Positions 2,432 to 15,719 of a stretch of DNA of 64,000 nucleotides are shown one piece after another. Source of the DNA: Flavivirga eckloniae (GTDB taxonomy: Bacteria > Bacteroidota > Bacteroidia > Flavobacteriales > Flavobacteriaceae); the NCBI RefSeq assembly GCF_002886045.1, contig NZ_CP025791.1, positions 3,735,001-3,799,000 of the forward strand. The letters run 5' to 3'. The translations under genes and the position numbers were made by a program. The first letter of the stretch is position 1. Every line of letters starts with the position of its first letter. Below the pieces are notes generated by a model. It was not told the DNA's origin. It worked only from the letters and a program-made list of their open reading frames with translations, and did not search any database.

Positions 2432-3850
2432 TTACTTATGCAATGCTGCTTTGTATTTAGGGTTCATCATGTTTTCGATACTTAAGATTTTATCTAGTTC
2501 TTCTTCGGTGAGTAACTTTTTTTCTAACACTAATTCTCTAATGTTTTTACCTGTAGCTACTGCTTCCTTGCCAATAATATCCCCCATATGGTGACCGATA
2601 TAAGGGTTTAAAAACGTAATGATTCCAACTGAATTTAAAACCATTTCTTTAGTGTGTTCTGCATTAGCAGTAATACCTGAAATACACTTTTCTGCCAGTG
2701 TTACGCAAGCATTAGATAATAATTCTACAGATTCGAATAGACATTGCGCTAAAACAGGTTCCATTACATTTAATTGTAATTGACCAGCTTCGGCAGCAAA
2801 AGAAATCGTAACATCGTTCCCTATAATTTTAAAGCAAACTTGATTTACTACTTCAGGAATTACAGGGTTTACCTTTGCTGGCATAATAGACGATCCAGCC
2901 TGCATTTCAGGTAAATTAATTTCGTTTAAGCCACAGCGCGGACCAGAAGATAATAATCGTAAGTCATTACAAATTTTAGACAGCTTAACAGAACTTCTCT
3001 TTAAAGCCCCCGAAATCATAACATAAGCACCCGTATCGGAAGTGGCTTCAATTAAGTTTTCTGCTTTTACAAAACTAGCTTTCGTAAATTGCTGTAAATA
3101 TCCAATGGATAGTTCTGAATATCCTTTAGGCGCATTAATTCCTGTTCCAATGGCTGTTGCTCCCAAATTGACTTCAAGAATTAAATCTCTATTGCGTTTT
3201 AGATTTTTGGTTTCTTCTTTCAGGTTTGTTGACCAGGATGCGAATTCATCGCCCAAAGACATTGGTACGGCATCTTGTAATTGTGTGCGTCCCATTTTAA
3301 GGACTTTTTCAAATTCAGCAGCTTTTTTATCTAAATGCGTTGTGAGAATGTTGATTTTTTCGAGTAGATGGTTCATATAGTAATAAACAGCAACTCTAAA
3401 AGCAGTTGGGTAAGCATCATTAGTTGATTGCGATTTATTTACATGATCGTTCGGGTTTAAAATATCATAATTCCCTTTTTTAAAACCATTTAGTTCTAAA
3501 CCAACATTTGCAATCACTTCATTAGCGTTCATATTTACAGACGTACCTGCTCCACCTTGAAATACATCCGAAGGGAAGTATTGGGTATACTTTTCTAGAT
3601 TGTTTAATATCTCATCACAAGCTTGAAGAATCATGTCTGCTTTGTCCGATGGGATGGTTCCAATCTCTTTATTAGCAGCTGCACAAGCTTTTTTTGTGAG
3701 GATTAAACCTTTTACAAAAATGGGAAAATCACTTATTTTTGAGTTTGATATTTTAAAATTATTAATGGCTCTCTGAGTATGAATGCCATAATAAAATTCG
3801 TTTCCTATTTCTAATTCGCCTAGTAAGTCAATTTCTGTTCTTGTCTTCAT
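2432..3850 (-). CDS. aspA: Aspartate ammonia-lyase
   Basis: This 472-residue enzyme of the fumarase/aspartase superfamily converts L-aspartate to fumarate and ammonia in the cytoplasm. The superfamily signature [11 protein letters not shown] is at about residues 319-329, and [13 protein letters not shown] (about 100-112) is typical of aspartase and class II fumarase. The residue pattern (…[24 protein letters not shown]…) favours aspartase over fumarase. The length matches the family. The gene converges with the DUF1080 gene and diverges from the arginine cluster, so it is probably monocistronic. Aspartate is also consumed by argG in the divergent cluster, so the arrangement may be metabolically meaningful, but no shared regulator is visible. 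Confidence 0.93.
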
Positions 3851-3957: not shown

Positions 3958-3985
3958 TTGGTATGAAAATAAAGTTATAGCTTTG
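3958..3985 (+). promoter_or_regulatory. Predicted Bacteroidota-type promoter of the arginine/proline cluster
   Basis: TTG at 3958-3960 and TAGCTTTG at 3978-3985 fit the Bacteroidota pattern (TTG near -33, TAnnTTTG near -7) with a 17-base gap. Transcription would start near 3990, at or next to the ATG of the first leader peptide, so that peptide may be read from a leaderless mRNA. This is sequence reading only. Confidence 0.5.
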
Positions 3986-3989
3986 CCCT

Positions 3990-4061
3990 ATGAAAATTTT
4001 AAATAAAATACGTTTCTCTGTTCCCGGTTTGCCCGCACGACGTCGCCGTCGCTGCATCTAA
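3990..4061 (+). CDS. Arginine-rich leader peptide 1 (candidate attenuator)
   Basis: This is a 23-codon reading frame starting MKILNKIRFSV and ending with five consecutive arginine codons (CGA CGT CGC CGT CGC, 4038-4052), then Cys-Ile and a TAA stop. Six of 23 codons are arginine. It lies directly downstream of a predicted promoter and about 220 bases ahead of the first gene of the arginine cluster, the classic place for a leader peptide that senses charged tRNA-Arg by ribosome stalling. The arginine codons can also fold locally (GCACGAC with GTCG-TGC, 4035-4055). No conventional ribosome binding site is present. The attenuation role is inferred from codon content and position. Confidence 0.6.
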   Translation: MKILNKIRFSVPGLPARRRRRCI

Positions 4062-4068
4062 TTCTTTC

Positions 4069-4200
4069 ATGCCCACAAACCAAAACGTAATTTTAATTTT
4101 TTTCATAGTGTCCAAAATATATTTCATAGCATTTCAAAATTCAGTTAATTTCTTAGTTAACACATACATTATGCGCCGTAATTTTCCACGTCGCCCGTAA
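4069..4200 (+). CDS. Leader peptide 2, hydrophobic with an arginine-rich end (candidate attenuator)
   Basis: This 43-codon frame begins seven bases after the stop of leader peptide 1, close enough for translational coupling. Its first 34 codons encode a hydrophobic stretch. The last nine, MRRNFPRRP (4171-4197), hold four arginines and could also be read as a separate mini-ORF from the internal ATG at 4171. The TAA stop (4198-4200) lies in the loop of the hairpin at 4190-4208. A ribosome waiting at the arginine pairs 4174-4179 or 4189-4194 would cover part of that stem. This matches a stalling-controlled attenuator ahead of the arginine genes, but function is inferred. Confidence 0.5.
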   Translation: MPTNQNVILIFFIVSKIYFIAFQNSVNFLVNTYIMRRNFPRRP

Positions 4201-4218
4201 GGGTGCGCTTCTATTTTT
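4190..4218 (+). terminator. Candidate attenuator hairpin before the arginine cluster
   Basis: CGCCC (4192-4196) can pair with GGGTG (4201-4205) around a GTAA tetraloop made of the last base of the Pro codon and the leader-peptide stop codon. A few weaker pairs extend the stem to 4190/4208, and TTCTATTTTT follows (4209-4218). An alternative pairing GCGC (4173-4176) with GCGC (4205-4208) competes with it. The stem is short, so termination strength is uncertain. Confidence 0.4.
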
Positions 4219-4284
4219 GAACTAGGTGAGTCCAGTTCAGCAATCAAAAAAGGTTAAAATTCAAATTAAAAAATAGATACAATA

Positions 4285-4908
4285 ATGGAGATTGTAATCG
4301 CTAATAAATCACATACTAAATACGCAGAGATTATTTGCGAAACTATTGCAGAATCAGCAAAGGTTAGGGGTACTGGTATTGCCAAACGAACACCAGAGTA
4401 TATTTCAACAAAAATGGAAAATGGCAACGCCGTTATTGCCTTAGATGGTGATGTGTTTGCAGGGTTTTGTTATATAGAACTTTGGGGACATGGAAAGTTT
4501 GTTGCCAATTCAGGGTTAATAGTACATCCAAATTACAGAGGCAAAGGCTTGGCGAAAAAGATAAAGCATAAGGTTTTTGCACATTCCAGAACAAAATTTC
4601 CAAATGCAAAAGTATTCAGTATTACAACAGGTTTGGCTGTAATGAAGTTGAATAGCGATTTAGGGTATAAACCCGTTACATTTTCAGAATTAACAGACGA
4701 TCAAACATTTTGGGATGGGTGTCAAACCTGTCAGAACTATGACGTTTTAACACGAACCAAACGAAAAATGTGTTTGTGTACCGGGATGTTATATGATGCG
4801 AAAGCAAACGAGAAAAAAGAATCAAAGAAAATAAAAGAAAAGGTTTTTAAAAGATTGAAACATATTAAGGAGACCATGTTTTTAAAAAAAGATAAAAAAG
4901 TAAAGTAA
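4285..4908 (+). CDS. GNAT acyltransferase, probable first step of arginine synthesis
   Basis: This 207-residue protein has a GNAT acetyltransferase fold. The acyl-CoA binding segment GLIVHPNYRGKGLAKKI is at about residues 77-93, and a lysine-rich tail occupies the last 40 residues. It is the first structural gene of the arginine cluster and its stop overlaps the argG start by one base, so translation is coupled. No ArgJ or classical ArgA is in the cluster, so this GNAT enzyme most likely acylates the amino group of glutamate (N-acetyl- or N-succinylglutamate synthase). A cysteine-rich stretch (CQTCQNYD … MCLCTG, about 151-172) is unusual and could bind metal. The acyl donor is not decided by the sequence, although Ala90 in the transcarbamylase suggests succinyl. 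Confidence 0.72.
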   Translation: MEIVIANKSHTKYAEIICETIAESAKVRGTGIAKRTPEYISTKMENGNAVIALDGDVFAGFCYIELWGHGKFVANSGLIVHPNYRGKGLAKKIKHKVFAHSRTKFPNAKVFSITTGLAVMKLNSDLGYKPVTFSELTDDQTFWDGCQTCQNYDVLTRTKRKMCLCTGMLYDAKANEKKESKKIKEKVFKRLKHIKETMFLKKDKKVK

Positions 4909-6086
4909 TGAAAAAATTAGTAATAGCATATAGTGGCGGGTTAGATACATCGTATTGCGCAGTAAGTTTATCTAAAACATATGAAGTGCATGCAGTAAGT
5001 GTAAATACCGGAGGATTTACACAAGGGGAAATCGATCATATTGAAAGTAATGCTTATAAAATGGGTGTTACTACCTATAAGAATATTGATGCAGTTGCTA
5101 CATTTTACCAAAAAGTAGTAAAGTATTTAATTTATGGTAATGTTTTAAAGAACAATACCTACCCGTTATCTGTAAGCGCAGAACGAATCATTCAAGCCAT
5201 TGAGATTGTAGAATACGCAAAAAGTATCGGTGCAGAATATATTGCACATGGAAGTACAGGCGCAGGAAACGATCAAGTAAGATTCGACATGATTTTTCAA
5301 ACCTTGGCTCCAGAGATTGAAATCATCACACCAATTAGAGATCAAAAATTAACCAGACAAGAGGAGATAGACTATTTAAAATCTAACGGAATTGATATGT
5401 CTTGGGAAAAAGCACAATACTCCATTAACAAAGGACTTTGGGGGACCAGTGTTGGAGGGTCTGAAACCTTAGAGTCTGAAAAACCATTACCAAGCGAAGC
5501 CTATCCATCTCAATTAGAAAAAGAAGGCGAAGAAAAAGTAACACTTACTTTTAAAAATGGAGAGTTTGTAGCATTGAATGGTGAAGAAAACACACCAGAA
5601 GTTAATATTGAATTATTAAATAATATAGCTTCGACTTATGCTATTGGAAGAGATATCCATGTTGGTGATACTATTGTTGGTATAAAAGGGCGTGTAGGTT
5701 TTGAAGCTGCAGCAGCTTTAATTACCGTAAAAGCGCACCATTTATTAGAAAAGCATACCCTTACCAAATGGCAGCTTCAGCATAAAGAATACCTATCAAG
5801 TTTTTACGGAATGCATTTACATGAAGGTCAGTATTTAGATCCGGTAATGCGAAATATCGAAGCCTTTTTACAAAGTAGTCAAGAGCAAGTAAGCGGTGAT
5901 GTAACCGTGACATTAAAACCATATCATTTCTCATTAGATGGTATAGTATCAGAACATGATTTAATGAATGCCAAGTTTGGTAGTTACGGAGAAGTCAATA
6001 AAGGATGGACCGCAGATGAAGCGAAAGGATTCATTAAAATTATTGGAAATCAAAATAAAATATACCAACAGGTAAATAATTCGTAA
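4908..6086 (+). CDS. argG: Argininosuccinate synthase
   Basis: This 392-residue enzyme joins citrulline and aspartate using ATP to form argininosuccinate. The N-terminal PP-loop AYSGGLDTSYC (about residues 8-18) is the diagnostic ATP-binding motif, and STGAGNDQVRFD (about 117-128) is the conserved citrulline/aspartate-binding region. The length is near the family norm. It overlaps the GNAT gene by one base (TAATG) and precedes argC by 39 bases, consistent with one operon. Confidence 0.95.
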   Translation: MKKLVIAYSGGLDTSYCAVSLSKTYEVHAVSVNTGGFTQGEIDHIESNAYKMGVTTYKNIDAVATFYQKVVKYLIYGNVLKNNTYPLSVSAERIIQAIEIVEYAKSIGAEYIAHGSTGAGNDQVRFDMIFQTLAPEIEIITPIRDQKLTRQEEIDYLKSNGIDMSWEKAQYSINKGLWGTSVGGSETLESEKPLPSEAYPSQLEKEGEEKVTLTFKNGEFVALNGEENTPEVNIELLNNIASTYAIGRDIHVGDTIVGIKGRVGFEAAAALITVKAHHLLEKHTLTKWQLQHKEYLSSFYGMHLHEGQYLDPVMRNIEAFLQSSQEQVSGDVTVTLKPYHFSLDGIVSEHDLMNAKFGSYGEVNKGWTADEAKGFIKIIGNQNKIYQQVNNS

Positions 6087-6125
6087 GTTATTGAGAAGCA
6101 CAACACAACAATAAATCGTATAAAA

Positions 6126-7109
6126 ATGGAAAAAATTGAAGTTGGGATTATAGGAGGTGCTGGTTATACAGCAGGAGAGTTGGTGAGATTATTAGTATCG
6201 CATCCAAAAACGAATATTAATTTTGTATTCAGTACATCCAATGCTGGCAATAAAATTAGTCATATCCACCAGGATTTAGTGGGGACTTTAGATTTAAAAT
6301 TTACAGACACCGTTAATCCAAATGTCGATGTATTGTTTTTGTGTTTAGGTCATGGTAATTCGGTGAAGTTTTTAGAGAACAATACGTTTTCGGACAGCAC
6401 AAAGATTATCGATTTAGGAAACGATTTCAGATTAGAAAAAGATAAGGTTTTTGACGGTAAAAACTTTGTGTACGGTTTACCCGAATTACAAAAAGAAGCC
6501 ATTAAATCTGCTAACTATATTGCTAATCCGGGATGTTTTGCAACAGCCATTCAATTAGCATTATTGCCATTAGCAGACAAGGATTTATTAAATAACGATG
6601 TGCATATTAATGCTGTAACCGGAGCCACAGGAGCAGGAACATCGTTATCGGCAACAACCCATTACACATGGCGAGATAATAACTTTTCGTATTACAAGCC
6701 ATTTACGCATCAGCATTTAGGAGAAATAAATCAGTCCGTAAATCAGTTGCAAAACGATTTTTCTTCAGATATTTTGTTTATGCCAAACAGGGGGAATTTT
6801 TCAAGAGGCATTTTTGCAACCCTTTATACAGATTTTGAAGGCACCGTTGAAGAAGCCATCTCGATTTACAAAGATTTTTATAAAGATGCCAAGTTTACGT
6901 TTGTTTCAGATGCAACGATTCATTTAAAACAGGTGGTAAACACGAATAAATGCATCATACATTTACATAAGCATAATAATAAGTTGTTGATTACAAGTAT
7001 AATTGATAACTTGTTAAAAGGAGCGTCTGGACAAGCTATTCAAAACATGAATTTAATGTTCGGACTAGAAGAAACCGAAGGGTTAAAGCTGAAGGGGACT
7101 TATTTTTAA
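6126..7109 (+). CDS. argC: N-acetyl(succinyl)-gamma-glutamyl-phosphate reductase
   Basis: This 327-residue NADPH-dependent reductase converts acyl-glutamyl-phosphate to the semialdehyde, step three of arginine synthesis. The N-terminal Rossmann motif GIIGGAGYTAGEL (about residues 8-20) and the catalytic-cysteine motif NPGCFAT (Cys about 137) are intact. Its partner kinase argB is nine genes further on in the same cluster. A pair of degenerate palindromic repeats follows before proC. Confidence 0.95.
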   Translation: MEKIEVGIIGGAGYTAGELVRLLVSHPKTNINFVFSTSNAGNKISHIHQDLVGTLDLKFTDTVNPNVDVLFLCLGHGNSVKFLENNTFSDSTKIIDLGNDFRLEKDKVFDGKNFVYGLPELQKEAIKSANYIANPGCFATAIQLALLPLADKDLLNNDVHINAVTGATGAGTSLSATTHYTWRDNNFSYYKPFTHQHLGEINQSVNQLQNDFSSDILFMPNRGNFSRGIFATLYTDFEGTVEEAISIYKDFYKDAKFTFVSDATIHLKQVVNTNKCIIHLHKHNNKLLITSIIDNLLKGASGQAIQNMNLMFGLEETEGLKLKGTYF

Positions 7110-7110
7110 A

Positions 7111-7212
7111 GGGCTCCCCTAATCCCTCCAAAGGAAGAGGGTTAAATGAATAAAAAATAATAACATAAAATAATAGCTTCTTGTCCCCCTTAGGAGAGGT
7201 TAAGAGAGGCCC
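7111..7212. repeat. Two degenerate palindromic repeats, inverted pair, between argC and proC
   Basis: GGGCTCCCCTAATCCCTCC (from 7111) and CCCCCTTAGGAGAGGTTAAG (from 7185) are related to the element at 399-430, in opposite orientations. The first lies two bases after the argC stop. The pair may fold into one long hairpin in the transcript. No coding potential was seen. Confidence 0.5.
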
Positions 7213-7222
7213 ATAGAAAACG

Positions 7223-8017
7223 ATGAAAATAGCAATAATAGGAACAGGAAACTTAGGAAGTTCAATAGCAAAAGGACTCATTAACAATAAGTCTTTTACA
7301 TCACTATATTTAAGTGATAAAAACACCTCGGCTGTTAAAGCTTTTAGTAATGAAGATTATGTAACACTAACAGATGATAATGTGTTGGCTGTTGAAGAAT
7401 CCGACATGGTCATTTTCGCACTTCAACCTAAGCATATTGATGCTGTTTTAACTAGTGTTGCGCCGAAAATAACAGAAAATCATGTCATTATTTCTGTAGC
7501 AGCCGGAGTAGATATTCTAAGAATAGAAGGTATTATTGGAAGCGATAAAAATATCATCCGGGTCATGCCTAATACTGCGATCTCAATTGGTAAATCCATG
7601 ACCTGTTTGTGTGCCAACGAAAAAGGACAGGAAAAGATAGGGTTAGCACAAAAAATATTTGATCAGTTGGGGACTACGATGGTAATTTCAGAAGACCTGG
7701 TGCAAGCTGCAACCGTTATATGTGCCAGTGGAATAGCCTTTTGGATGCGTTTGGCTCGTGCTACAACACAAGGCGCCATTCAATTAGGTTTTGAAGCCGA
7801 GCAAGCACACGAATTAGCTACACAAACATGCTACGGTGCTGCCAGTTTATTGATAGAATCCGGAAGACACCCGGAACAAGAAATTGATCGTGTAACCACA
7901 CCAAGCGGTTGTACTATCGAAGGATTAAATGCGATGGAACACCAAGGGTTAAGCTCTGCTTTAATACAAGGTATAGTAGCTTCTTTCGAAAAAATTAACC
8001 AACTAAAAAAGAATTAA
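7223..8017 (+). CDS. proC: Pyrroline-5-carboxylate reductase
   Basis: This 264-residue NAD(P)H enzyme makes L-proline from pyrroline-5-carboxylate. The nucleotide-binding motif IIGTGNLGSSIAKGL is at the N-terminus, and the conserved proline-binding segment of the C-terminal half (…HPEQEIDRVTTPSGCTIEGLNAMEHQG…) is present. It stands inside the arginine cluster and its stop is two bases from argD. The proC, proA and proB genes are thus interleaved with arg genes, suggesting co-ordinate supply of proline and arginine from glutamate. Confidence 0.94.
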   Translation: MKIAIIGTGNLGSSIAKGLINNKSFTSLYLSDKNTSAVKAFSNEDYVTLTDDNVLAVEESDMVIFALQPKHIDAVLTSVAPKITENHVIISVAAGVDILRIEGIIGSDKNIIRVMPNTAISIGKSMTCLCANEKGQEKIGLAQKIFDQLGTTMVISEDLVQAATVICASGIAFWMRLARATTQGAIQLGFEAEQAHELATQTCYGAASLLIESGRHPEQEIDRVTTPSGCTIEGLNAMEHQGLSSALIQGIVASFEKINQLKKN

Positions 8018-8018
8018 A

Positions 8019-9164
8019 ATGCCATTATTTGACGTTTATCCATTATATAATGTAACACCCGTTTCTGGGAAAGATATTCTCGTTTATGACGACGAAGGAA
8101 CCGAGTATTTAGATCTTTACGGAGGCCATGCCGTGATTTCTATCGGACATGCCCATCCTAATTATGTAGATGCTATTACCAATCAGGTTAATACCTTAGG
8201 GTTTTATTCAAACGCTATTCAAAATCCGTTACAGAAACAATTAGCAGATAAGCTTGAAGCACTTTCAGGGTGTAAGGATTATGAACTGTTTTTATGTAAC
8301 TCTGGTGCAGAAGCTAATGAAAATGCGTTAAAATTAGCCTCTTTTAAAACAGGGAAAAAACGCGTTGTTGCATTTAGCAAAGGGTTTCATGGAAGAACAT
8401 CGGCAGCCGTTGCAGCAACCGATAATAAAAATATCATTGCACCAATAAATGCACAACAAGCTGTAACAATTTTACCCTTAAATGATGTTGAAGGCGTTAA
8501 GGCGGAGTTGGAAAAAGGAGATGTTTGTGCTGTTATTGTAGAATTTATTCAAGGTATTGGAGGTTTAGATCAAGGAACAGTCGAATTTTTCGAACAAGTA
8601 GATAAACTGTGTAAAGCCAATAATACCATGTTTATTGCAGACGAAATTCAGTGTGGTTATGGACGTTCGGGTAAATTCTTTGCATTTCAGCATTATAATG
8701 TTACGCCAGATATTATTTCGATGGCAAAAGGTATGGGGAATGGTTTTCCAATAGGCGGGATTTTAATTCACCCGGATATCGAAGCCAAATATGGCATGCT
8801 AGGAACCACTTTTGGAGGCAACCATTTAGCATGCGCAGCAGGCTTAGCCGTTTTAAATACTATTGAAGAAGAAAACCTGATAGAAAACACAAATATCATT
8901 TCGGAGTATTTTGTTGAAAAGGCGAAAACAATTCCGCAGATAAAAAATATAAAAGGAAGAGGCTTAATGCTAGGTCTGGAATTCGATTTTGAAGTTGGAG
9001 ACCTAAGAAAGAAACTCATTTATGATGAACATATTTTTACTGGTGGCGCAGCTAACAAAAAACTGTTAAGAATATTACCACCATTAACCATTAAAAAAGA
9101 ACATGTAGATCAATTTTTTGAAACTCTTAAAAAGGTTTTAGAAGAAATACAAGAAACAGTTTAA
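8019..9164 (+). CDS. argD: Acetyl/succinylornithine aminotransferase (class III PLP)
   Basis: This 381-residue class III PLP aminotransferase exchanges the semialdehyde and ornithine forms of the acylated intermediate, using glutamate as amino donor. Visible landmarks are GGHAVISIGHAHP near residue 35, NSGAEANENALKLA near 95, the cofactor Asp in FIADEIQCGYGRSG near 207 and the Schiff-base lysine in SMAKGMGNGFPIGG near 240. The family includes ornithine aminotransferases, and the position between proC and proA leaves open a dual role. Placement in the arg operon makes ArgD the better call. Confidence 0.9.
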   Translation: MPLFDVYPLYNVTPVSGKDILVYDDEGTEYLDLYGGHAVISIGHAHPNYVDAITNQVNTLGFYSNAIQNPLQKQLADKLEALSGCKDYELFLCNSGAEANENALKLASFKTGKKRVVAFSKGFHGRTSAAVAATDNKNIIAPINAQQAVTILPLNDVEGVKAELEKGDVCAVIVEFIQGIGGLDQGTVEFFEQVDKLCKANNTMFIADEIQCGYGRSGKFFAFQHYNVTPDIISMAKGMGNGFPIGGILIHPDIEAKYGMLGTTFGGNHLACAAGLAVLNTIEEENLIENTNIISEYFVEKAKTIPQIKNIKGRGLMLGLEFDFEVGDLRKKLIYDEHIFTGGAANKKLLRILPPLTIKKEHVDQFFETLKKVLEEIQETV

Positions 9165-9177
9165 ACTATATATTATG

Positions 9178-9262
9178 AGATGTCTCAATCGTGCCTCATA
9201 TCGACATGACAAAACAATATTAATAATATTGAGTCATTTCGACCAAAAGGAGAAATCACACA
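9178..9262. repeat. Degenerate dispersed repeat between argD and proA
   Basis: TCGACATGAC and the partly complementary GAGTCATTTCGA flank a short AT-rich centre. This resembles the GTCATT…TCGA… palindromic repeats seen at 12352, 14340, 35731 and 55829. It is non-coding. Confidence 0.4.
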
Positions 9263-9283
9263 AGTAGCCAACACATAGCTAGG

Positions 9284-9364
9284 CTGAACACAGAGACTGT
9301 AAACTGAATACTGAATACTGATCACTGGAACACTGGAACAACTGAATACTGAACACTGAATACC
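9284..9364 (+). repeat. Imperfect short tandem repeats (CTGAATACTGA / CACTGGAA units)
   Basis: The stretch just before proA is built of imperfect 7-11 base units: CTGAATA, CTGAATACTG, CACTGGAA twice, ACTGAATACTG, ACACTGAATA. It ends eight bases before the proA start codon and may be a slippage-prone region in the leader of proA. Confidence 0.55.
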
Positions 9365-9371
9365 AAATAAG

Positions 9372-10568
9372 ATGAATACCCTATTATCCATAGAAAAAAG
9401 AAATGCCGTACTACTTAAAATGGCTGTGCTTTTAGAGCAAGAACGTCAGGCTATAATCGATATTAATAAAACCGATTTAGAAGCTTATAACGGTGACGAT
9501 ATTTCAATGTACGACAGGTTAAAAGTGGACGATGCCAAGGTAGACGAAATGATTGTAGCAGTAACACATTTAGCATCTCAAGAAGATCCTGTGGGTGTAG
9601 AACGTTTTAGTTTTAAGCATGAAAACGGCATGCAAGTTTATAACAAAACAGCATCGTTTGGAACAGTGTTAATTATTTACGAATCCAGACCAGATGTTAC
9701 AGTTGAAGCAGCGGGTATTGCATTTAAATCAGGTAATAAGATATTACTTAAAGGTGGTAAAGAGTCCCTAAAATCAAACCTGAAAATTGTTGCCTTGTGG
9801 CACCAGGCTTTAAAAGATAATGAAGCCTCTACAGATTGGGTAGAGTATTTACAATTTAACAGAGCAGAAACACAAGCCTTTTTAGAAAAACCAACGCAGA
9901 ATGTCGATTTAATAGTACCTCGTGGTGGCGAAAGACTAATCGCTTTTGTAAAGCAACATGCCACATGTCCGGTAATAATTAGTGGTCGCGGTAATAATTT
10001 TGTGTATGTACATCCAGAAGCAGACCAGCAAATCGCATTAGATCTGATTGTGAATGGAAAAACAGCCAAAATATCGGCGTGTAATGCTATTGATAAAGTA
10101 TTAATCGATAAAGATTTGCCGAATAAAGAAGCCTTTGTTAAGAATTTAATATCAAAACTAAAGGAATTTGATGTTGAGGTTTTGGGAGATGAAGGTTTAA
10201 CGGCTTTAGATGAGGTAAAACCAATTCCATCAGACGATATCTGGTTCGAAGAGTTTTTAGATTATAAAATTGCTATGGGAGAGATTACTTCTACCGAAGA
10301 GGCTATAGCAATGATAAATAAATATTCTGGTGGACATTCATCAGTTATTGTCACGACCAATGAAGGAGAAGCTAAGCTATTTATGGAAAATGTAGATAGT
10401 GCCGCTGTGTATCACAATGCTTCTTCCCGTTTTACAGATGGTGGTCAATTGGGATTAGGAGGCGAGCTAGCTATTAGTACAGATAAATTGCACCAAAGAG
10501 GGCCTATAGGCTTGCAACATTTGGTAACAAATAAATGGTATGTTCATGGTAATGGACAAACAAGATAG
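9372..10568 (+). CDS. proA: Gamma-glutamyl phosphate reductase
   Basis: This 398-residue enzyme of the aldehyde dehydrogenase superfamily reduces gamma-glutamyl phosphate to glutamate-5-semialdehyde for proline synthesis. Characteristic segments are YESRPDVTVEAAGIAFKSGN (about residues 98-117), the catalytic-cysteine region TAKISACNAIDKVLID (about 230-245) and a C-terminal RFTDGGQLGLGGELAISTDKLHQRGP. It lies two bases upstream of proB, in the reverse of the usual proB-proA order. Confidence 0.95.
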   Translation: MNTLLSIEKRNAVLLKMAVLLEQERQAIIDINKTDLEAYNGDDISMYDRLKVDDAKVDEMIVAVTHLASQEDPVGVERFSFKHENGMQVYNKTASFGTVLIIYESRPDVTVEAAGIAFKSGNKILLKGGKESLKSNLKIVALWHQALKDNEASTDWVEYLQFNRAETQAFLEKPTQNVDLIVPRGGERLIAFVKQHATCPVIISGRGNNFVYVHPEADQQIALDLIVNGKTAKISACNAIDKVLIDKDLPNKEAFVKNLISKLKEFDVEVLGDEGLTALDEVKPIPSDDIWFEEFLDYKIAMGEITSTEEAIAMINKYSGGHSSVIVTTNEGEAKLFMENVDSAAVYHNASSRFTDGGQLGLGGELAISTDKLHQRGPIGLQHLVTNKWYVHGNGQTR

Positions 10569-10570
10569 CC

Positions 10571-11332
10571 ATGAAGAAAAAAAGAATATTACTAAAAATT
10601 GGGTCTAATACACTTACCAAAGAAACTAATAACATTTCTAGAGGTAAGATTGAAGATATTGCAAACCAGATAGCAAAATTACAGGATACCTGTGAGTTTA
10701 TTATTGTAAGTTCTGGAGCTATTGCCGTGGCAAAACAGTTTGTAAAGCTGGAAAGTAAGCAAAAAGATGTTTTTGTAAAGCAAGCCTTGGCATCTATAGG
10801 TCAGCCCCATCTTATAAGAATATATCAGGAGATTTTTAGAGAATATGGATTGTTAACATCACAATGTTTATTATCGTATTCAGACTTTGAAAAACAAGAG
10901 AGTAAAACCAATATTGTAAATACCATTAACGTACTCGTTAACAATAGTTATGTACCTATTATTAATGAAAATGATACCGTGGCAACCGATGAAATTAAAT
11001 TTGGAGATAACGATAAATTAGGAGCGCTCACGGCCTCGCTTTTAAATGCCGACTTGTTTATAATAGCAACCAATACAAACGGTATTTATACCAAAGAATC
11101 CATAGAAAATGGAACCCCAAAAACCATAGAACTAGTTGAAGACTTTAATCAATTAAAGAATCAGGTCGTAAACTCTAAATCTACTCATGGTACAGGTGGC
11201 ATGCAATCTAAAATAGATGCCATTTCAGTAGCAAAACAATCGAACGTAGAAACATGGATTGTAAACGGATTAGAAGATAATTTTATAACGAATGCTTTCG
11301 AAAATAAGATTCCGTTTACCAAAATAAAATAA
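10571..11332 (+). CDS. proB: Glutamate 5-kinase lacking the PUA domain
   Basis: This 253-residue amino-acid kinase phosphorylates glutamate for proline synthesis. The N-terminal LLKIGSNTLT, VSSGAIAVAKQ and the NENDTVATDEIKFGDNDKLGA segment (about residues 138-158) identify the family. Escherichia coli ProB has about 367 residues with a C-terminal PUA domain; this protein stops after the kinase domain. A short form may respond differently to proline feedback. Confidence 0.9.
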   Translation: MKKKRILLKIGSNTLTKETNNISRGKIEDIANQIAKLQDTCEFIIVSSGAIAVAKQFVKLESKQKDVFVKQALASIGQPHLIRIYQEIFREYGLLTSQCLLSYSDFEKQESKTNIVNTINVLVNNSYVPIINENDTVATDEIKFGDNDKLGALTASLLNADLFIIATNTNGIYTKESIENGTPKTIELVEDFNQLKNQVVNSKSTHGTGGMQSKIDAISVAKQSNVETWIVNGLEDNFITNAFENKIPFTKIK

Positions 11333-11343
11333 TAGAATAAAGT

Positions 11344-11376
11344 AGACCTGTTAGGTTTTTAAAACCTGACAAGTCT
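11344..11376 (+). terminator. Hairpin between proB and argF' (terminator-like or repeat)
   Basis: AGACCTGTTAGGTTTT pairs with AAAACCTGACAAGTCT with few mismatches. The core resembles the hairpin at 337-370. No strong T run follows, and the arginine genes continue 25 bases later, so full termination here is doubtful; it may tune distal expression. Confidence 0.4.
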
Positions 11377-11400
11377 AAAAGAAATAACAACTATTAAACA

Positions 11401-12339
11401 ATGAAACATTACACCTCCATACACGATATAGACGACATAAATTCGTGGATAGCAGATGCTAAAGCCTTAAAGCAAGCCCCTTTACAAGATGTAACCTTAG
11501 GAAAAGACAAAACCATTGGGTTATTGTTCTTTAATTCAAGCTTGCGTACCCGCTTAAGTACACAAAAGGCGGCATTGAATTTAGGCATGAATCCTATCGT
11601 TATGAATGTGTCTGGGGATGCATGGGGTATCGAATTTGGAGATGGTACCGTTATGGATGGTAATACTGCAGAACATATAAAGGAAGCCGCAGCTGTAGTG
11701 TCGCAATATTGTGATATTATTGCAGTAAGAGCATTTCCAACCTTAACAGATAAAACAAAAGACGAAAGCGAGCAGGTTTTAAAGTCGTTTGTTACATACG
11801 CATCAGTGCCTATAGTAAATATGGAGAGTGCTACCGGACATCCCTTACAAGGGTTAACCGATGCGCTAACCATTTCGGAACACGCTAAAGTAGCAAAACC
11901 AAAAGTTGTGCTAAGTTGGGCACCGCATGTAAAAACTTTGCCCCATGCCGTGGCAAATAGTTTTGTACAAGCCATGCAAAAAATGGATGTTGAGTTTGTA
12001 ATTACCCATCCCGAAGGTTACGATTTAAATCCAGAGATTACAGGTAATACACCTATCATTTATAATCAGGAAGAAGCGTTTGCAAATGCCGATTTTGTAT
12101 ATACCAAAAACTGGTGTTCGTATTCAGATTATGGGAAAATTTTAAGCGAAGACCCTAACTGGATGATTACCAAAGAAAAATTAGGAGATGCTAAATTTAT
12201 GCACTGCTTACCAGTAAGACGAAATGTAGTAGTAGAAGACGCTGTTTTAGATAGTGATAGTTCGTTGGTTATTCAACAGGCTAATAACAGAACCTATGCA
12301 GCTCAATTAGTACTTAAAAAATTATTGGAAAATTTATAA
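11401..12339 (+). CDS. argF': N-succinyl (or N-acetyl) ornithine carbamoyltransferase
   Basis: This 312-residue transcarbamylase moves the carbamoyl group to an acylated ornithine, as in the Bacteroides/Xanthomonas branch. The carbamoyl-phosphate motif is SLRTR (about residues 47-51), and FMHCLPVRR lies near 247. The specificity loop reads MDGNTAEH. Residue 90 is Ala, at the place of Pro90 in Bacteroides fragilis SOTCase and Glu92 in Xanthomonas AOTCase. From published work on these two enzymes as I recall it, a small or proline residue here favours succinylornithine. N-succinyl specificity is therefore the better inference. No classical ornithine transcarbamylase is in the cluster. Confidence 0.88.
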   Translation: MKHYTSIHDIDDINSWIADAKALKQAPLQDVTLGKDKTIGLLFFNSSLRTRLSTQKAALNLGMNPIVMNVSGDAWGIEFGDGTVMDGNTAEHIKEAAAVVSQYCDIIAVRAFPTLTDKTKDESEQVLKSFVTYASVPIVNMESATGHPLQGLTDALTISEHAKVAKPKVVLSWAPHVKTLPHAVANSFVQAMQKMDVEFVITHPEGYDLNPEITGNTPIIYNQEEAFANADFVYTKNWCSYSDYGKILSEDPNWMITKEKLGDAKFMHCLPVRRNVVVEDAVLDSDSSLVIQQANNRTYAAQLVLKKLLENL

Positions 12340-12351
12340 CAGATTATCGAG

Positions 12352-12460
12352 TCACGTATGTCACACTGAGTCTTTCGACTACGCTCAAGATAAACTAAAA
12401 TTGAAATGTCAGGTTGAGTATTTCGGCTCCGTTTAAGACAGGCTAAAGTCGAAATCTAAA
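12352..12460. repeat. Dispersed palindromic repeats between argF' and argB
   Basis: Two related units, GTCACACTGAGTCTTTCGAC and GTCAGGTTGAGTATTTCGGC, match the flavobacterial intergenic pattern GTCA…TGAG…TTCGAC. The second carries GTTTAAGACAGGC. Related copies occur at 14340 and 55829. Confidence 0.5.
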
Positions 12461-12478
12461 TTAATAGAATAAATTAAA

Positions 12479-13255
12479 ATGGAAAAACTATCCATAGTAA
12501 AAATAGGAGGCAACATCATTGAAGACGAAGCATCTTTAACAGCCTTTTTAAAACTGTTTTCCAATTTAGAAGGGAAAAAAATCCTAGTACACGGAGGTGG
12601 TAAGCGTGCCACATCAATGGCATCCAAATTAGGTATAGCATCTAAAATGATAAACGGCAGACGTATTACCGATGCCGATACCTTGGAAGTAATCACTATG
12701 GTTTATGGCGGTTTAGTTAATAAAAATATAGTTGCCAAATTACAAGCCTTAAATACCGATGCTATTGGTTTAACAGGAGCCGATATAAATAGCATTGCAT
12801 CAGATATTAGACCCGTAAAAGAAATCGATTTTGGCTTTGTTGGCGATGTTAAACAAGTAGCACACGAATCTATCGATAAGCTAATTCAAGCTAATTTTAC
12901 ACCCGTTTTTTGTGCCATTACGCACGATGGTAAGGGACAATTACTAAATACGAATGCAGACACTATAGCGTCGCAAGTCGCAGTAGGGATGAGCCATTTA
13001 TACGAAACATCCATTTATTATTGTTTTGAGTTAAACGGTGTTTTAGAAGATATTAATGATAAAAATTCGGTTGTAAAACACATCGACTCAGAGAAATATA
13101 AAGACCTATTGGAAAAAGGGATTATAGCCGATGGGATGCTACCCAAACTGCATAATTGTTTTGAAGCCCTAAATAATGGCGTAGGCAAAATTAATATGGG
13201 AAATACATCTATGTTAACCCAGGAAAATGATAATTTTACAACCATAACTTTATAA
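12479..13255 (+). CDS. argB: Acetylglutamate (succinylglutamate) kinase
   Basis: This 258-residue amino-acid kinase phosphorylates N-acylglutamate, step two of arginine synthesis. The ATP-binding GGNIIEDE (about residues 10-17), VHGGGKRATSMA (about 38-49) and LLNTNADTIASQVAVGM (about 158-174) segments are intact. It lacks the N-terminal extension found in strongly arginine-inhibited hexameric forms. Its start is preceded by a repeat-rich spacer and its stop is one base from the deacylase gene. Confidence 0.93.
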   Translation: MEKLSIVKIGGNIIEDEASLTAFLKLFSNLEGKKILVHGGGKRATSMASKLGIASKMINGRRITDADTLEVITMVYGGLVNKNIVAKLQALNTDAIGLTGADINSIASDIRPVKEIDFGFVGDVKQVAHESIDKLIQANFTPVFCAITHDGKGQLLNTNADTIASQVAVGMSHLYETSIYYCFELNGVLEDINDKNSVVKHIDSEKYKDLLEKGIIADGMLPKLHNCFEALNNGVGKINMGNTSMLTQENDNFTTITL

Positions 13256-13256
13256 C

Positions 13257-14324
13257 ATGACGCAACAGGACTTAACTAACGATGCCATATCGCTTTTAAA
13301 AAAGTTGATAGAAACGCAGTCGTTTTCTTCAGAAGAAGATCAAACTGCTTTGCATATAGAAGATTGGTTTAAGCGCAATAATATTGATTACAAAAGAACG
13401 CAAAACAATGTTTGGGCAGTAAACAAGTATTTTGATGAAAGTAAGCCAACACTGTTGCTAAATTCACATCACGATACCGTAAAGCCAAACAGTGCCTACA
13501 CCAGAGATCCGTTTAAAGCTAGTGTAGAGGACGGTAAACTGTATGGTTTAGGGAGTAATGATGCAGGAGGATGTTTAGTAGCTTTAATTGCCACATTTAC
13601 TTATTTCTATAGTCAAGACGATTTAAAATATAACCTGGTTCTCGTTGCTTCTGCAGAAGAAGAAAGCAGTGGACCAAACGGATTAAATAGTATGTTGGCC
13701 GTTATACCAAGGGTAGATGTAGCTATAGTTGGAGAACCAACACTCATGAATTTGGCAGTAGCTGAAAAGGGTCTGGTGGTTTTTGATGCTGTAATTTCAG
13801 GAACGCCAAGTCATGCAGCACATCCTAACGATAATAATGCTATTTACAATACCATTGATGTATTACAGTGGTTTAAAGATTTTAAATTCGAAAAAGGATC
13901 AGAAGCATTAGGAGACGTAAAGCTAACCGTTACACAAATCAATGCTGGTAAACAACACAATGTAGTTCCGGGACATGTAGATTTAGTTATCGATGTTCGT
14001 GTAAATGATGCTTATAGTAATGCCGAGATTGCAGAAATATTACAAGAGCAATCACCATGTACAAGCATTACGCCACGTAGTTTACGTTTAAATTCGTCAT
14101 GTATTCCTGTAGATCACGATTTAGTTAAAGCTGGAATAGCTATTGGTAGAACGACCTATGGCTCACCAACACTATCAGATCAAGCCGTATTAACATGTCC
14201 GTCGTTAAAATTAGGACCAGGCGATAGTACACGTTCGCATTCGGCAGATGAGTTTATTTATGTGAATGAGATTGAGGAAGGGGTTAAGATTTATATAGAA
14301 TTGTTGAATCGTGTAATCGTTTAG
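13257..14324 (+). CDS. argE: M20 family acylornithine/acylcitrulline deacylase (ArgE-like)
   Basis: This 355-residue M20 metallopeptidase-family enzyme has the dinuclear-metal ligands in LLNSHHDTVKP (about residues 72-82), GLGSNDAGG (about 97-105), ASAEEESSGPNG (about 130-141), VGEPT (about 155) and a C-terminal SHSADEF. In this pathway variant the transcarbamylase acts on acylornithine, so the deacylase should release citrulline from N-succinyl- or N-acetylcitrulline rather than ornithine. The family also includes DapE, but its place between argB and argH settles the arginine role. Confidence 0.88.
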   Translation: MTQQDLTNDAISLLKKLIETQSFSSEEDQTALHIEDWFKRNNIDYKRTQNNVWAVNKYFDESKPTLLLNSHHDTVKPNSAYTRDPFKASVEDGKLYGLGSNDAGGCLVALIATFTYFYSQDDLKYNLVLVASAEEESSGPNGLNSMLAVIPRVDVAIVGEPTLMNLAVAEKGLVVFDAVISGTPSHAAHPNDNNAIYNTIDVLQWFKDFKFEKGSEALGDVKLTVTQINAGKQHNVVPGHVDLVIDVRVNDAYSNAEIAEILQEQSPCTSITPRSLRLNSSCIPVDHDLVKAGIAIGRTTYGSPTLSDQAVLTCPSLKLGPGDSTRSHSADEFIYVNEIEEGVKIYIELLNRVIV

Positions 14325-14339
14325 CACATTGAAACGGAC

Positions 14340-14431
14340 TGTCACCCTGAGTTCTGTCGAAGGGTCTCAAATATAACTGAAAGAATTATAGAAAATAATA
14401 ATTAAAAATGAAGGCAGAGATTTCTGCCTTC
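14340..14431. repeat. Dispersed repeat plus bistable hairpin ahead of argH
   Basis: GTCACCCTGAGTTCTGTCGA (14341-14360) belongs to the same family as 12352 and 55829. It is followed by a perfect hairpin GAAGGCAGA/TCTGCCTTC (14410-14418 and 14423-14431), whose right arm can instead take part in ATTTCTG/CAGAAAT (14420-14426 and 14433-14439). Both end within 14 bases of the argH start codon. Confidence 0.5.
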
Positions 14432-14444
14432 GCAGAAATTTAAC

Positions 14445-15719
14445 ATGAAACTCTGGGACAAAGGAATATCAATAGATAAAAAAATAGAGCAATTTACTGT
14501 TGGAAACGATAGAGAGATAGATATTCATATAGCAAAGTACGATGTCATAGCATCTAAAGCACATGCTAAAATGCTTCAAAAAGTGGGTATTATAACTGTT
14601 GAAGAATTAGTTGAATTGCTTGGCGGATTAAAAACCTTAGAAGATCAGATTAAAAACGGAACGTTTGTTATCGATCCTCAGTTTGAAGATGTACATTCAA
14701 AAATAGAATTCGAACTCACTAAATCTTTAGGAGAAGTCGGTAAAAAGATCCACACAGCACGTTCCAGAAACGATCAGGTTTTAGTGGCATTACACCTGTA
14801 TTATAAAGAGAACCTGGGGATAGTAAAAGAAAAAACAAAAGCTTTTTTTGATACGCTTTTGGAACTAGCCGAAACCCACAAAGACAAAGTACTACCAGGA
14901 TATACCCATTTACAAGTCGCTATGCCATCATCATTCGGACTTTGGTTCTCAGCCTATGCCGAGCAGATGATAGACGATGTATACCTGCTAAACGCAGCTA
15001 TTCAAACCGTAGATCAAAATCCGTTGGGATCTGCTGCAGGTTATGGAAGTTCATTCCCTATAGATAGAGAATTAACGACCAAGGAAATGGACTTTTCTAC
15101 TCTAAAATATAATGTAGTAGCAGCACAAATGAGTCGTGGAAAAAGTGAGCGAACCATAGCAGTAAGTTTGGGGAGTTTATGTAATACCATGTCTCGTTTT
15201 GCGATGGATGCCTGTTTGTATATGAGTCAGAATTTCGGGTTTATTTCCTTTCCAGATGAGTTAACCACGGGAAGTAGTATTATGCCTCATAAAAAGAATC
15301 CGGATGTATTTGAATTAATTAGAGGAAAGTGTAATAAAATACAAGCCTTGCAAAGCGAAATGGTTTTAATAACTAACAATTTACCTAGTGGTTATCACAG
15401 GGATTTTCAGCTGTTAAAAGAAAACATTATTGCCGCTTTTGAAGAAGTAAAAGATATTCTGGATATTTTCAATTACTCCATGCAGCAAATTATTGTAAAA
15501 GATGTCGACATTAACAGCGACCTGTATAAATACTTGTTTACTGTAGATAATATAAACACGTTGGTAGTGGAAGGACAAAGCTTTAGAGAAGCTTACCAAA
15601 AAATAGGTGGACAAGTACAAGATGGAACCTATGTTCCGGATACCTCTAAGCATCATACACATGTGGGAAGTATCCATAATTTATGCTTAGATAAGATACG
15701 CGATAAATTTCCGGATTAA
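14445..15719 (+). CDS. argH: Argininosuccinate lyase
   Basis: This 424-residue fumarase/aspartase-superfamily enzyme splits argininosuccinate into arginine and fumarate, the last step. The superfamily signature GSSIMPHKKNPD (about residues 278-289), the HTARSRNDQVLVALHLY segment (about 102-118) and PGYTHLQVAMPSS (about 152-164) are intact. It is somewhat shorter than the roughly 460 residues usual for the family. It is the final gene of the cluster, and a strong terminator follows. Confidence 0.94.
   Translation: MKLWDKGISIDKKIEQFTVGNDREIDIHIAKYDVIASKAHAKMLQKVGIITVEELVELLGGLKTLEDQIKNGTFVIDPQFEDVHSKIEFELTKSLGEVGKKIHTARSRNDQVLVALHLYYKENLGIVKEKTKAFFDTLLELAETHKDKVLPGYTHLQVAMPSSFGLWFSAYAEQMIDDVYLLNAAIQTVDQNPLGSAAGYGSSFPIDRELTTKEMDFSTLKYNVVAAQMSRGKSERTIAVSLGSLCNTMSRFAMDACLYMSQNFGFISFPDELTTGSSIMPHKKNPDVFELIRGKCNKIQALQSEMVLITNNLPSGYHRDFQLLKENIIAAFEEVKDILDIFNYSMQQIIVKDVDINSDLYKYLFTVDNINTLVVEGQSFREAYQKIGGQVQDGTYVPDTSKHHTHVGSIHNLCLDKIRDKFPD

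Follow-up and report, generated by a model that had tools for sequence, protein, structure and literature searches.

Two arginine-rich leader peptides and a candidate ribosome-mediated attenuator before the arginine operon of Flavivirga eckloniae and related Flavobacteriaceae

Two short reading frames rich in arginine codons stand in series before the arginine operon of Flavivirga eckloniae, and we interpret them as the sensors of a ribosome-mediated arginine attenuator, a reading to which we give a probability of roughly 0.62. Its parts are not equally secure: we are confident that ribosomes sense the arginine codons, output through transcription termination is moderately favoured, and the occlusion geometry that we propose is tentative. 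Comparison of related sequences establishes that the frames, their arginine codons, the RNA elements stem A, H1 and H2, the operon context and the promoter spacing are conserved. The window, by which we mean the whole stretch of 64,000 nucleotides that was analysed, belongs to a genome of 5.67 Mb in a single contig.

An earlier note, made from the letters of the window alone, had described a promoter-like sequence, a 23-codon frame with five consecutive arginine codons (4038-4052), a 43-codon frame from ATG 4069, 7 bases after the stop codon of the first, that ends RRNFPRRP and has its own stop codon in the loop of a hairpin followed by TTCTATTTTT, and a first operon gene (ATG 4285) 84 bases beyond that stop codon. 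All of these are present in the sequence. The highly conserved hairpin H2 (4217-4240) is absent from that description.

The arginine operon and the loci compared

The leader precedes an operon that begins with a GNAT-family acetyltransferase gene and continues from argG to an argH-like gene (Table 1). An NCBIfam search with the GNAT protein gave no match, and its nearest named matches, 95-97% identical, come from Flavivirga and an uncultured Flavobacteriaceae. On the minus strand, a divergent frame (2432-3850) that reads like an aspartate ammonia-lyase, for which no family search was made, shares the intergenic region with the leader promoter. A SAM riboswitch (RF00162, 30757-30872, plus strand, 74.8 bits) lies far from the leader.

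Table 1. Features of the leader region and of the operon behind it, in window positions (single numbers mark operon genes). Where argG, argD and argE/dapE are given as below the NCBIfam cut-off, their scores were just or well below it.
Feature	Position	Strand	Remarks
Promoter	3958..3985	+	TTG 3958-3960, 17-nt spacer, -7 box TAGCTTTG 3978-3985
Leader peptide 1	3990..4061	+	MKILNKIRFSVPGLPARRRRRCI, 23 codons, ATG 3990, stop 4059-4061
Stem A, 5' arm	3990..4016	+	start codon to codon 9 of leader 1
Stem B, 5' arm	4026..4031	+	GGTTTG; partner CAAACC 4076-4081; from the window fold and the L001 duplex; covariation not separately assessed
Stem A, 3' arm, merging into U-run	4082..4107	+	AAAACGTAATTTTAATTTTTTTCATA; candidate terminator T1, occluder of the leader 2 start, or both
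Leader peptide 2	4108..4200	+	VSKIYFIAFQNSVNFLVNTYIMRRNFPRRP; putative GTG start 4108, stop 4198-4200
H0, AU hairpin inside leader 2	4144..4161	+	GTTAATT-TCTT-AGTTAAC
H1, GC hairpin	4189..4207	+	CGCCC-GUAA-GGGUG; 5' arm is the RRP codons, leader 2 stop codon in the loop
U-rich tract after H1	4209..4218	+	TTCTATTTTT; candidate terminator T2 together with H1
H2 hairpin	4217..4240	+	covarying stem, bulged A, GG/CC pairs, UGNGU loop, near-invariant apex AGGUGNGUCC
GNAT-family acetyltransferase, first gene	4285..4908	+	Pfam PF00583, 31.8 bits
Rest of operon	4908..15719	+	argG through argH-like
argG	4908	+	NCBIfam best match, below curated cut-off
argC	6126	+	NCBIfam, curated cut-off passed
proC	7223	+	NCBIfam, curated cut-off passed
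argD	8019	+	NCBIfam best match, below curated cut-off
proA	9372	+	NCBIfam, curated cut-off passed
proB	10571	+	NCBIfam, curated cut-off passed
argF-like carbamoyltransferase	11401	+	NF003384, curated cut-off passed
argB	12479	+	NCBIfam, curated cut-off passed
argE/dapE-like	13257	+	NCBIfam best match, below curated cut-off
argH-like	14445	+	ORF reading alone, no family search

The comparison set combined the upstream regions of 90 of the 197 family loci that carry the first gene with 80 named loci, 170 in all, of which 143 are distinct over 250 nt; the named loci are nearly all from Flavobacteriaceae or its genera. Both frames and their arginine codons are kept before the arginine operon in many genera, which bears out the conservation that the earlier note had named as a check, and the covariation of the hairpins, its other check, exceeds permuted or shuffled controls for stem A and for H1-H2.

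Promoter and leader 1

The promoter is called as Bacteroidota-type from a reading of the sequence, without support from a scan; an E. coli-type promoter scan of the leader region stayed at chance, with 3 found against 2.3 expected. In the window the last base of the -7 box TAGCTTTG lies 4 nt before the ATG of leader 1. Such a box stands 4-8 nt before the promoter-proximal leader ATG in 119 of the 143 distinct loci, and at exactly 4 nt in 87 of them, in a search that allowed 2-8 nt; among other ATGs of the same upstream regions the box occurs before 27 of 875, with flat spacing. Its consensus matches the -7 box consensus reported for F. psychrophilum in the accessible part of PMC9723704. With this spacing and a promoter of the Bacteroidota type, the start codon is inferred to lie at or next to the transcription start, as the earlier note had suspected, and translation of the first leader would then probably start on the extreme 5' end of the transcript or close to it, leaderless or nearly so. 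For comparison, the parts of the sources available put leaderless mRNAs at 5.5% of those examined in F. psychrophilum (PMC9723704) and 5' UTRs shorter than 10 nt at about 3.7% in B. thetaiotaomicron (PMC7366714).

A leader 1 with an ATG start after the -7 box is found in 104 of the 143 distinct loci. By eye, four more (L017, L025, L032, L163), which had been counted among loci without leader 1, carry the same peptide in the same place with a GTG start; just 3' of the -7 box this would be a near-leaderless GUG start. Arginine makes up 23.2% of leader 1 residues vs 2.1% in the operon proteins, an 11-fold enrichment, and 84.7% of the leader 1 arginine codons are CGY (358 codons, 72 loci); in argG, argC and argD of the same loci CGY accounts for 25.1% of arginine codons and AGA, the most used, for 47.2%. 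When related loci are compared, differences from codon 10 to the end of leader 1 number 2333, 2223 and 3293 at codon positions 1, 2 and 3, and changed codons in the arginine-rich 3' half are 3760 non-synonymous vs 1404 synonymous, while the 5' part has no third-position excess among related loci; the locus pairs in this comparison are not independent. The frame is open in 72 of 72 loci by construction, and this count is uninformative because leader 1 was defined as an open reading frame. Close relatives conserve the motif KNKIRC.IPGLPVR.RRR. A conserved GC hairpin inside leader 1 is not claimed, its mean score being 11.8 vs 10.1 for shuffled sequences, with 36% of shuffles as high.

Leader 2 and its start codon

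Leader 2 was located by an anchor, the CGNCGCCC of H1, upstream of H2, which demands no open frame. The frame count leaves out the 31 of 143 loci without it, a good number of which are Polaribacter with different codons at this point. Over the 20 codons before the anchor the leader 2 frame is open in 112 of 112 testable loci, compared with 26 and 19 for the two shifted frames. Openness before RRP extends to 28 codons in all 79 two-leader loci; at 30 codons it holds in 77 of them, at 36 in 52 and at 40 in 31. Because openness holds to 28 codons and then fades, these sequences point to GTG 4108, 27 codons before RRP and directly after the U-run, as the start. In at least 52 of 74 loci (12 commonest classes; no chance estimate) the U-run is followed after 3-6 nt by the first in-frame GTG, TTG or ATG. 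The second frame of the earlier note thus survives as an arginine-rich frame with a conserved RRP end, but not its proposed start: ATG 4069 would need 40 codons, the position where openness is lost. A downstream alternative, ATG 4171 (MRRNFPRRP), was also set aside as it is not conserved, being absent for example from L004 and L005.

Arginine accounts for 11.4% of the 20 residues before RRP, vs 2.1% in the operon proteins, and with the anchor excluded 75.8% of leader 2 arginine codons are CGY (194 of 256). Differences between related loci number 4387, 4486 and 5773 at codon positions 1, 2 and 3 of the last ten codons, and the arginine-rich 3' half has 7175 non-synonymous vs 2306 synonymous codon changes; over 20 codons the third-position excess is absent. 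The end of the peptide is exactly R-R-P-stop in 77 of 90 loci, and between clades only the arginine codons and the RRP end persist.

Two leaders are not universal. In a group of single-leader genera (for example L057, L061, L069-L071, L073, L078, L080, L083 and L085) leader 1 is missing and the promoter stands directly before leader 2, whose peptide ends PVRPFSPRRRRP or similar before the stop codon. Two consecutive sensor peptides, as the earlier note proposed, are therefore upheld for the two-leader loci, this genome among them, and not for these genera. Labelling loci as having two leaders or one requires 10 changes on the tree, which was built from few columns and in which 4 rows labelled 'one' actually have a GTG-started leader 1. 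In L007 and L141, close relatives, leader 1 is missing and a promoter-like TACTTTTAC lies just before leader 2, as in the single-leader genera.

RNA structure of the leader

The fold of the whole 295-nt leader is only modestly better than that of shuffled sequences (z -1.6; 17 of 200 shuffles as good), so the case for structure rests on comparison. For stem A, the duplex of each arm with its own partner reaches -12.8 kcal/mol vs -10.6 (sd 0.24) for permuted partners, with none of 10000 permutations as low among 91 distinct arms, although the permutation does not fully remove the relatedness of the loci. By eye, both arms have changed in the diverged loci L035, L036, L049, L051 and L062. RNAalifold, given a MAFFT alignment of 54 loci, draws stem A, but its covariation term is unfavourable and the diverged arms are poorly aligned. 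A run of five or more T 12-70 nt 3' of the leader 1 stop codon is found in 98 of 104 loci with leader 1, and a control within the first 58 nt of leader 1 gave 2 of 104.

Inside leader 2, the best hairpin ends at the same place as H0 (-28 from RRP) in 45 of 79 two-leader loci, where its mean score is 13.9 vs 11.6 in plain shuffles; in 15 single-leader loci the values of 12.0 vs 11.1 do not clearly differ. H0 is a possible RNA polymerase pause hairpin. H1 has a fold energy of -10.3 kcal/mol (4187-4212) and only 5-7 pairs, and a terminator scan found one site in 451 bases vs 0.2 expected from shuffles. The mean U fraction of the interval between H1 and H2 is 0.57 in two-leader loci (n=76) and 0.53 in single-leader loci (n=15), and over the 40 nt before the GNAT start it is 0.30 and 0.39, respectively; the terminator-like signature of H1 and U-tract is plainer in two-leader than in single-leader loci. 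In L029, L044, L047, L052, L058, L066, L077 and L079, judged by eye, the stop codon has gone from the H1 loop and the hairpin and in-frame arginine codons are kept.

An RNAalifold consensus of the H1-H2 region contains H1 and H2 only, and a search that was not exhaustive found no conserved antiterminator competing with H1. For 29 single-leader loci the RNAalifold consensus adds a weak helix of 4 pairs that joins the start codon of the first gene to the codon preceding H1, the only pairing seen with that start codon; all 4 pairs can form in 42 of 112 loci, and 3 pairs in 63 of 112.

A conserved hairpin of undetermined role

The H2 pattern GGTGNGTC is present in 133 of 143 distinct loci, with A, T and C at the N of its UGNGU loop in 100, 23 and 10 of the 133. 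In this genome its 3' end lies 44 nt before the GNAT start. Its apex is more conserved than the leader peptides. In the H1-H2 alignment (84 of 90 loci, chosen for holding GGTGNGTC), 94.3% of cells are paired and cells with both sides changed number 60 vs 18.5 in shuffles, with none of 500 as high; the covariation of 0.221 compares with 0.107 when shuffled (0 of 500) and at most 0.072 when slid. Most of this support comes from H2, H1 having one pair with changes on both sides. Since the loci were chosen by GGTGNGTC, the invariance of the apex is partly a product of selection, which is not so for the stems. Among the 10 loci of 143 without the pattern, L004, L005 and L015 keep the RRP end and its stop codon; L040, also without the usual pattern, has an H2-like hairpin farther upstream.

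H2 was considered and rejected as a terminator because no U-run follows it, the U fraction of the next 10 nt being only 0.30 in two-leader and 0.20 in single-leader loci. AGGUG could pair with the anti-Shine-Dalgarno sequence; a Shine-Dalgarno-like role was nevertheless dropped, as H2 does not keep a constant distance from the first gene and its N position is variable. AGGTGNGTCC occurs at 7 places in the genome (reversed-pattern control, 3), and only the leader copy forms the stem, with 7 pairs as against no more than 3 at the others. As far as these searches go, H2 is an RNA motif that has not been described, with its partner and role undetermined.

Distribution across the family and the absence of ArgR

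Searched with an H1-H2 covariance model, this genome has a single site, at 94.1 bits with the next best at 19.2, and the model matches 183 of 299 genomes of the family. In a phylum sample of 296 genomes 21 had a match, of which only 13 exceed 26 bits, all of them in the same family; matches outside it are weak, at 22-26 bits. Second matches in four genomes (26-29 bits) look like chance or an ordinary terminator and were discounted. The GNAT first gene is present in 197 of 299 family genomes, and 18 of the 20 genomes listed, out of 102 in the family without it, also lack argC. Two genomes without it (G084, locus L235; G152, locus L236) retain the leader, and in them the slot before argG is filled by a different frame that looks acetyltransferase-like by eye; this replacement frame, or the GNAT protein, may be the missing first enzyme of the pathway.

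The leader is not constant in form. L020 and L144 keep leader 1 and have lost a recognisable leader 2 end, H1 and H2. L012 and L196 have no H2 near the gene; L012 has an arginine-rich frame, and in L012 and L040 leaders of other length lie farther from the gene, ending ARRFRRPLRV and ARRFRRPLGV before the stop codon. L245 (genome G033) has, some 91-199 nt upstream of GNAT, an arginine-rich frame ending FRFDFRRRLLA, with an H1-like hairpin and no conserved H2 apex. Across the 17 genomes of genus g127 in the phylum sample the element is absent apart from one weak match. Three of these genomes were checked and possess argC, the GNAT gene and argG; in the one with the weak match, that match does not lie near argC. 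In two of the three a promoter of similar kind is followed by another frame. Upstream of GNAT in L243 and L244, of this genus, a different short frame begins a few bases after a -7 box (MNKISLHITSLSRTISPGTSPEVRMLSI and a stop codon in L243, by eye), with CGG arginine codons and the hairpin GTACTTC-TCCC-GAAGTAC, and may be another form of arginine leader.

The C-terminal domain of the arginine repressor ArgR (Arg_repressor_C, PF02863) was found in 0 of 40 genomes (this one, 24 of the family and 15 of the order); the control search was positive in 8 of 14 known genomes, including Bacteroides ihuae.

Proline

The earlier note took the leader to control a merged arginine and proline operon. The arginine half is supported by the conserved arginine codons, while co-sensing of proline is not, as the number of prolines in the leaders does not follow the presence of proAB. 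Proline is enriched 2.6-2.7-fold in the leaders; operons with and without proAB have on average 2.30 (n=53) vs 2.50 (n=28) prolines in leader 2 (P=0.53) and 1.73 (n=48) vs 1.46 (n=24) in leader 1 (P=0.053). A role for proline is not excluded, because proC is present in 98 of 100 operon stretches, one of the two lacking it being a stretch that ends after argG.

Proposed mechanism and its weak points

If transcription starts at or next to the leader 1 start codon, ribosomes would bind directly at the free 5' terminus of the transcript. With arginyl-tRNA plentiful they would run through the CGY codons of leader 1, stem A and its U-run would form, and most transcripts would stop there. Transcripts that pass T1 would meet leader 2, where a fast ribosome leaves and H1 with its U-tract would again stop transcription. 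A shortage of charged tRNA-Arg would make the ribosome stall on the arginine codons, where its bulk would block the 5' arm of H1 and the inner portion of T1, and RNA polymerase would continue into the operon. The response would be steeper with two such gates one after the other. Stalling, termination, the direction of the response and this occlusion geometry are all inferred, and no transcript, ribosome, growth or expression data stand behind them.

The weakest point is timing, which matters because the position of the stall and the wait at the stop codon act in opposite senses on the covering of H1. With the stall at the first RR pair of leader 2 (4174-4179) the ribosome would not reach H1, and a ribosome waiting at the leader 2 stop codon, or one closely trailing RNA polymerase, would also cover it. 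Pausing at H0 or slow release could resolve the problem, although no test supports this. L020 and L144, with leader 1 and without the leader 2 end, H1 and H2, also speak against the scheme, as do the failure to find an antiterminator, the few pairs of H1, the GC hairpin of leader 1 that does not exceed shuffles, the unfavourable covariation term of stem A and the excess of non-synonymous over synonymous codon changes; the invariance of the H2 apex is left unexplained by attenuation. It is possible that H2 represents a hitherto undescribed kind of RNA hairpin, one to which an unidentified factor is recruited, and that it acts together with a leaderless double arginine sensor which in Flavobacteriaceae has replaced ArgR, a combination that we consider doubtful; the factor might be a protein or the transcription machinery, for instance in a processive antitermination signal for a long operon.

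Other explanations were weighed against attenuation by these two leaders. Translation termination after proline is slow, and the Arg-Arg-Pro-stop end of leader 2 in 77 of 90 loci would suit a Rho-dependent variant as at tnaC, in which a ribosome on RRP and its stop codon shields or exposes a Rho entry site before the first gene and H1 times the ribosome without being a terminator. By eye, the stretch 3' of H2 in single-leader genera is C/A-rich with no U-run beside H2, which favours this variant, but several loci have lost the loop stop codon while keeping the arginine codons and hairpin (also by eye), and the U-rich tract 3' of H1 is conserved; we judge this variant unlikely. A long U-run at the end of stem A (98 of 104 loci) likewise looks like a terminator, which counts against a purely translational relay, where stem A hides the leader 2 start, or the arginine codons before H1 pair with the first-gene start, and stalling acts on translation or mRNA stability without termination. 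The 3' arm of stem A does extend to the leader 2 start codon and RNAalifold does draw the helix to the first gene (all 4 pairs in 42 of 112 loci, three in 63), yet this helix consists of the constant letters CGU and AUG with one G-U pair at the alignment edge, and the single-leader genera work without leader 1; a relay is in our view rather unlikely.

In SpeFL and TnaC the leader peptide holds a free ligand in the ribosome tunnel, and a nascent-peptide arrest sensor for free arginine or ornithine would account for the conserved C-terminal RRP before the stop codon and, in close relatives, for KNKIRC.IPGLPVR.RRR. However, the conservation of the leader 1 N-terminus is explained by stem A, only the arginine codons and the RRP end persist between clades, and the third-position signature is confined to the arginine-rich part, so that we hold this sensor to be very improbable. 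H1-H2 might also be a ligand- or protein-binding RNA element with the reading frames as by-products, as the near-invariant H2 apex on its covarying stem, more conserved than the peptides, could suggest. Against this, the leader 2 frame stays open over 28 codons, far beyond the extent of H1, in every one of the 79 two-leader loci, there is a third-position excess near its end, leader 1 is far from H1-H2, and no Rfam family matches; this explanation is the hardest to credit.

Relation to known leaders

Classical attenuators control the trp, his, leu, ilv and phe operons of enterobacteria. The leader described here shares with them a short frame rich in end-product codons between promoter and biosynthetic operon and, as a sequence signature only, an overlapping hairpin with a U-rich tract. 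Unlike them it concerns arginine, has two leaders in series with the first frame at or near the transcript 5' end, uses the Arg/Pro codons themselves as the 5' arm of the terminator-like hairpin, and has an extra conserved hairpin, H2. A mutually exclusive antiterminator is the hallmark of the classical design, and none turned up here in a search short of exhaustive.

Within the same bacterial family, 'strong clues' for leader peptides before amino-acid operons have been reported in F. psychrophilum; the conserved elements named in the accessible part of that paper concern pheA, hisG, ftsY, acsA, alaS and rimP, and the arginine operon is not named there (PMC9723704). It is the only paper found that joins Flavobacteriaceae, arginine and leader peptide, and its section on 5' regulatory RNAs, so far as available, names other genes (PMC9723704). 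Our literature search found no description of an arginine leader in Bacteroidota, although most subscription papers lay outside it and an earlier mention is possible.

Elsewhere, the available text on rbfL of Staphylococcus aureus describes an 8-aa leader with arginine codons that senses arginine limitation by pausing; it lies over the ribosome binding site of a biofilm regulator, repression being the effect of pausing, its codons are AGA/AGG and no arginine-synthesis operon is involved (PMC13009471). The Salmonella speF leader, as far as its source was accessible, also has arginine codons and alternative mRNA conformations at low and high arginine, but serves ornithine decarboxylase and polyamine synthesis, not arginine synthesis (PMC6386406). 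T-box control of arginine genes in other bacteria resembles the present case as regulation at the RNA level, and a survey of Actinobacteria in the same partly available source reported no conserved RNA structures at arginine operons (PMC1262725). The T-box covariance model had no match at gathering score in the leader or in 15 related loci, and for Rfam as a whole there was likewise no gathering-score match in these sequences, only unrelated weak ones at E up to 10. T-boxes bind tRNA directly without a leader peptide. The fungal arginine attenuator peptide is an upstream peptide that regulates arginine synthesis; it differs in acting on translation, by ligand-induced arrest, in eukaryotes.

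Significance

In many marine flavobacteria the arginine leaders very probably serve to detect a lack of arginine by way of the cell's own ribosomes and to turn on the whole pathway in response. If the mechanism holds, an entire arginine operon would be under an arginine attenuator with two consecutive sensors, in organisms whose genomes yielded no ArgR (0 of 40 searched). Bacteroidota are largely without Shine-Dalgarno initiation, and the apparent reading of leader 1 from the 5' end would therefore offer a clean natural test of leaderless initiation; the same system would be a natural test of the closeness of coupling between ribosome and RNA polymerase in this phylum. With the element in 183 of 299 genomes of the family, this could be how arginine synthesis is normally controlled in those Flavobacteriaceae that make the amino acid.
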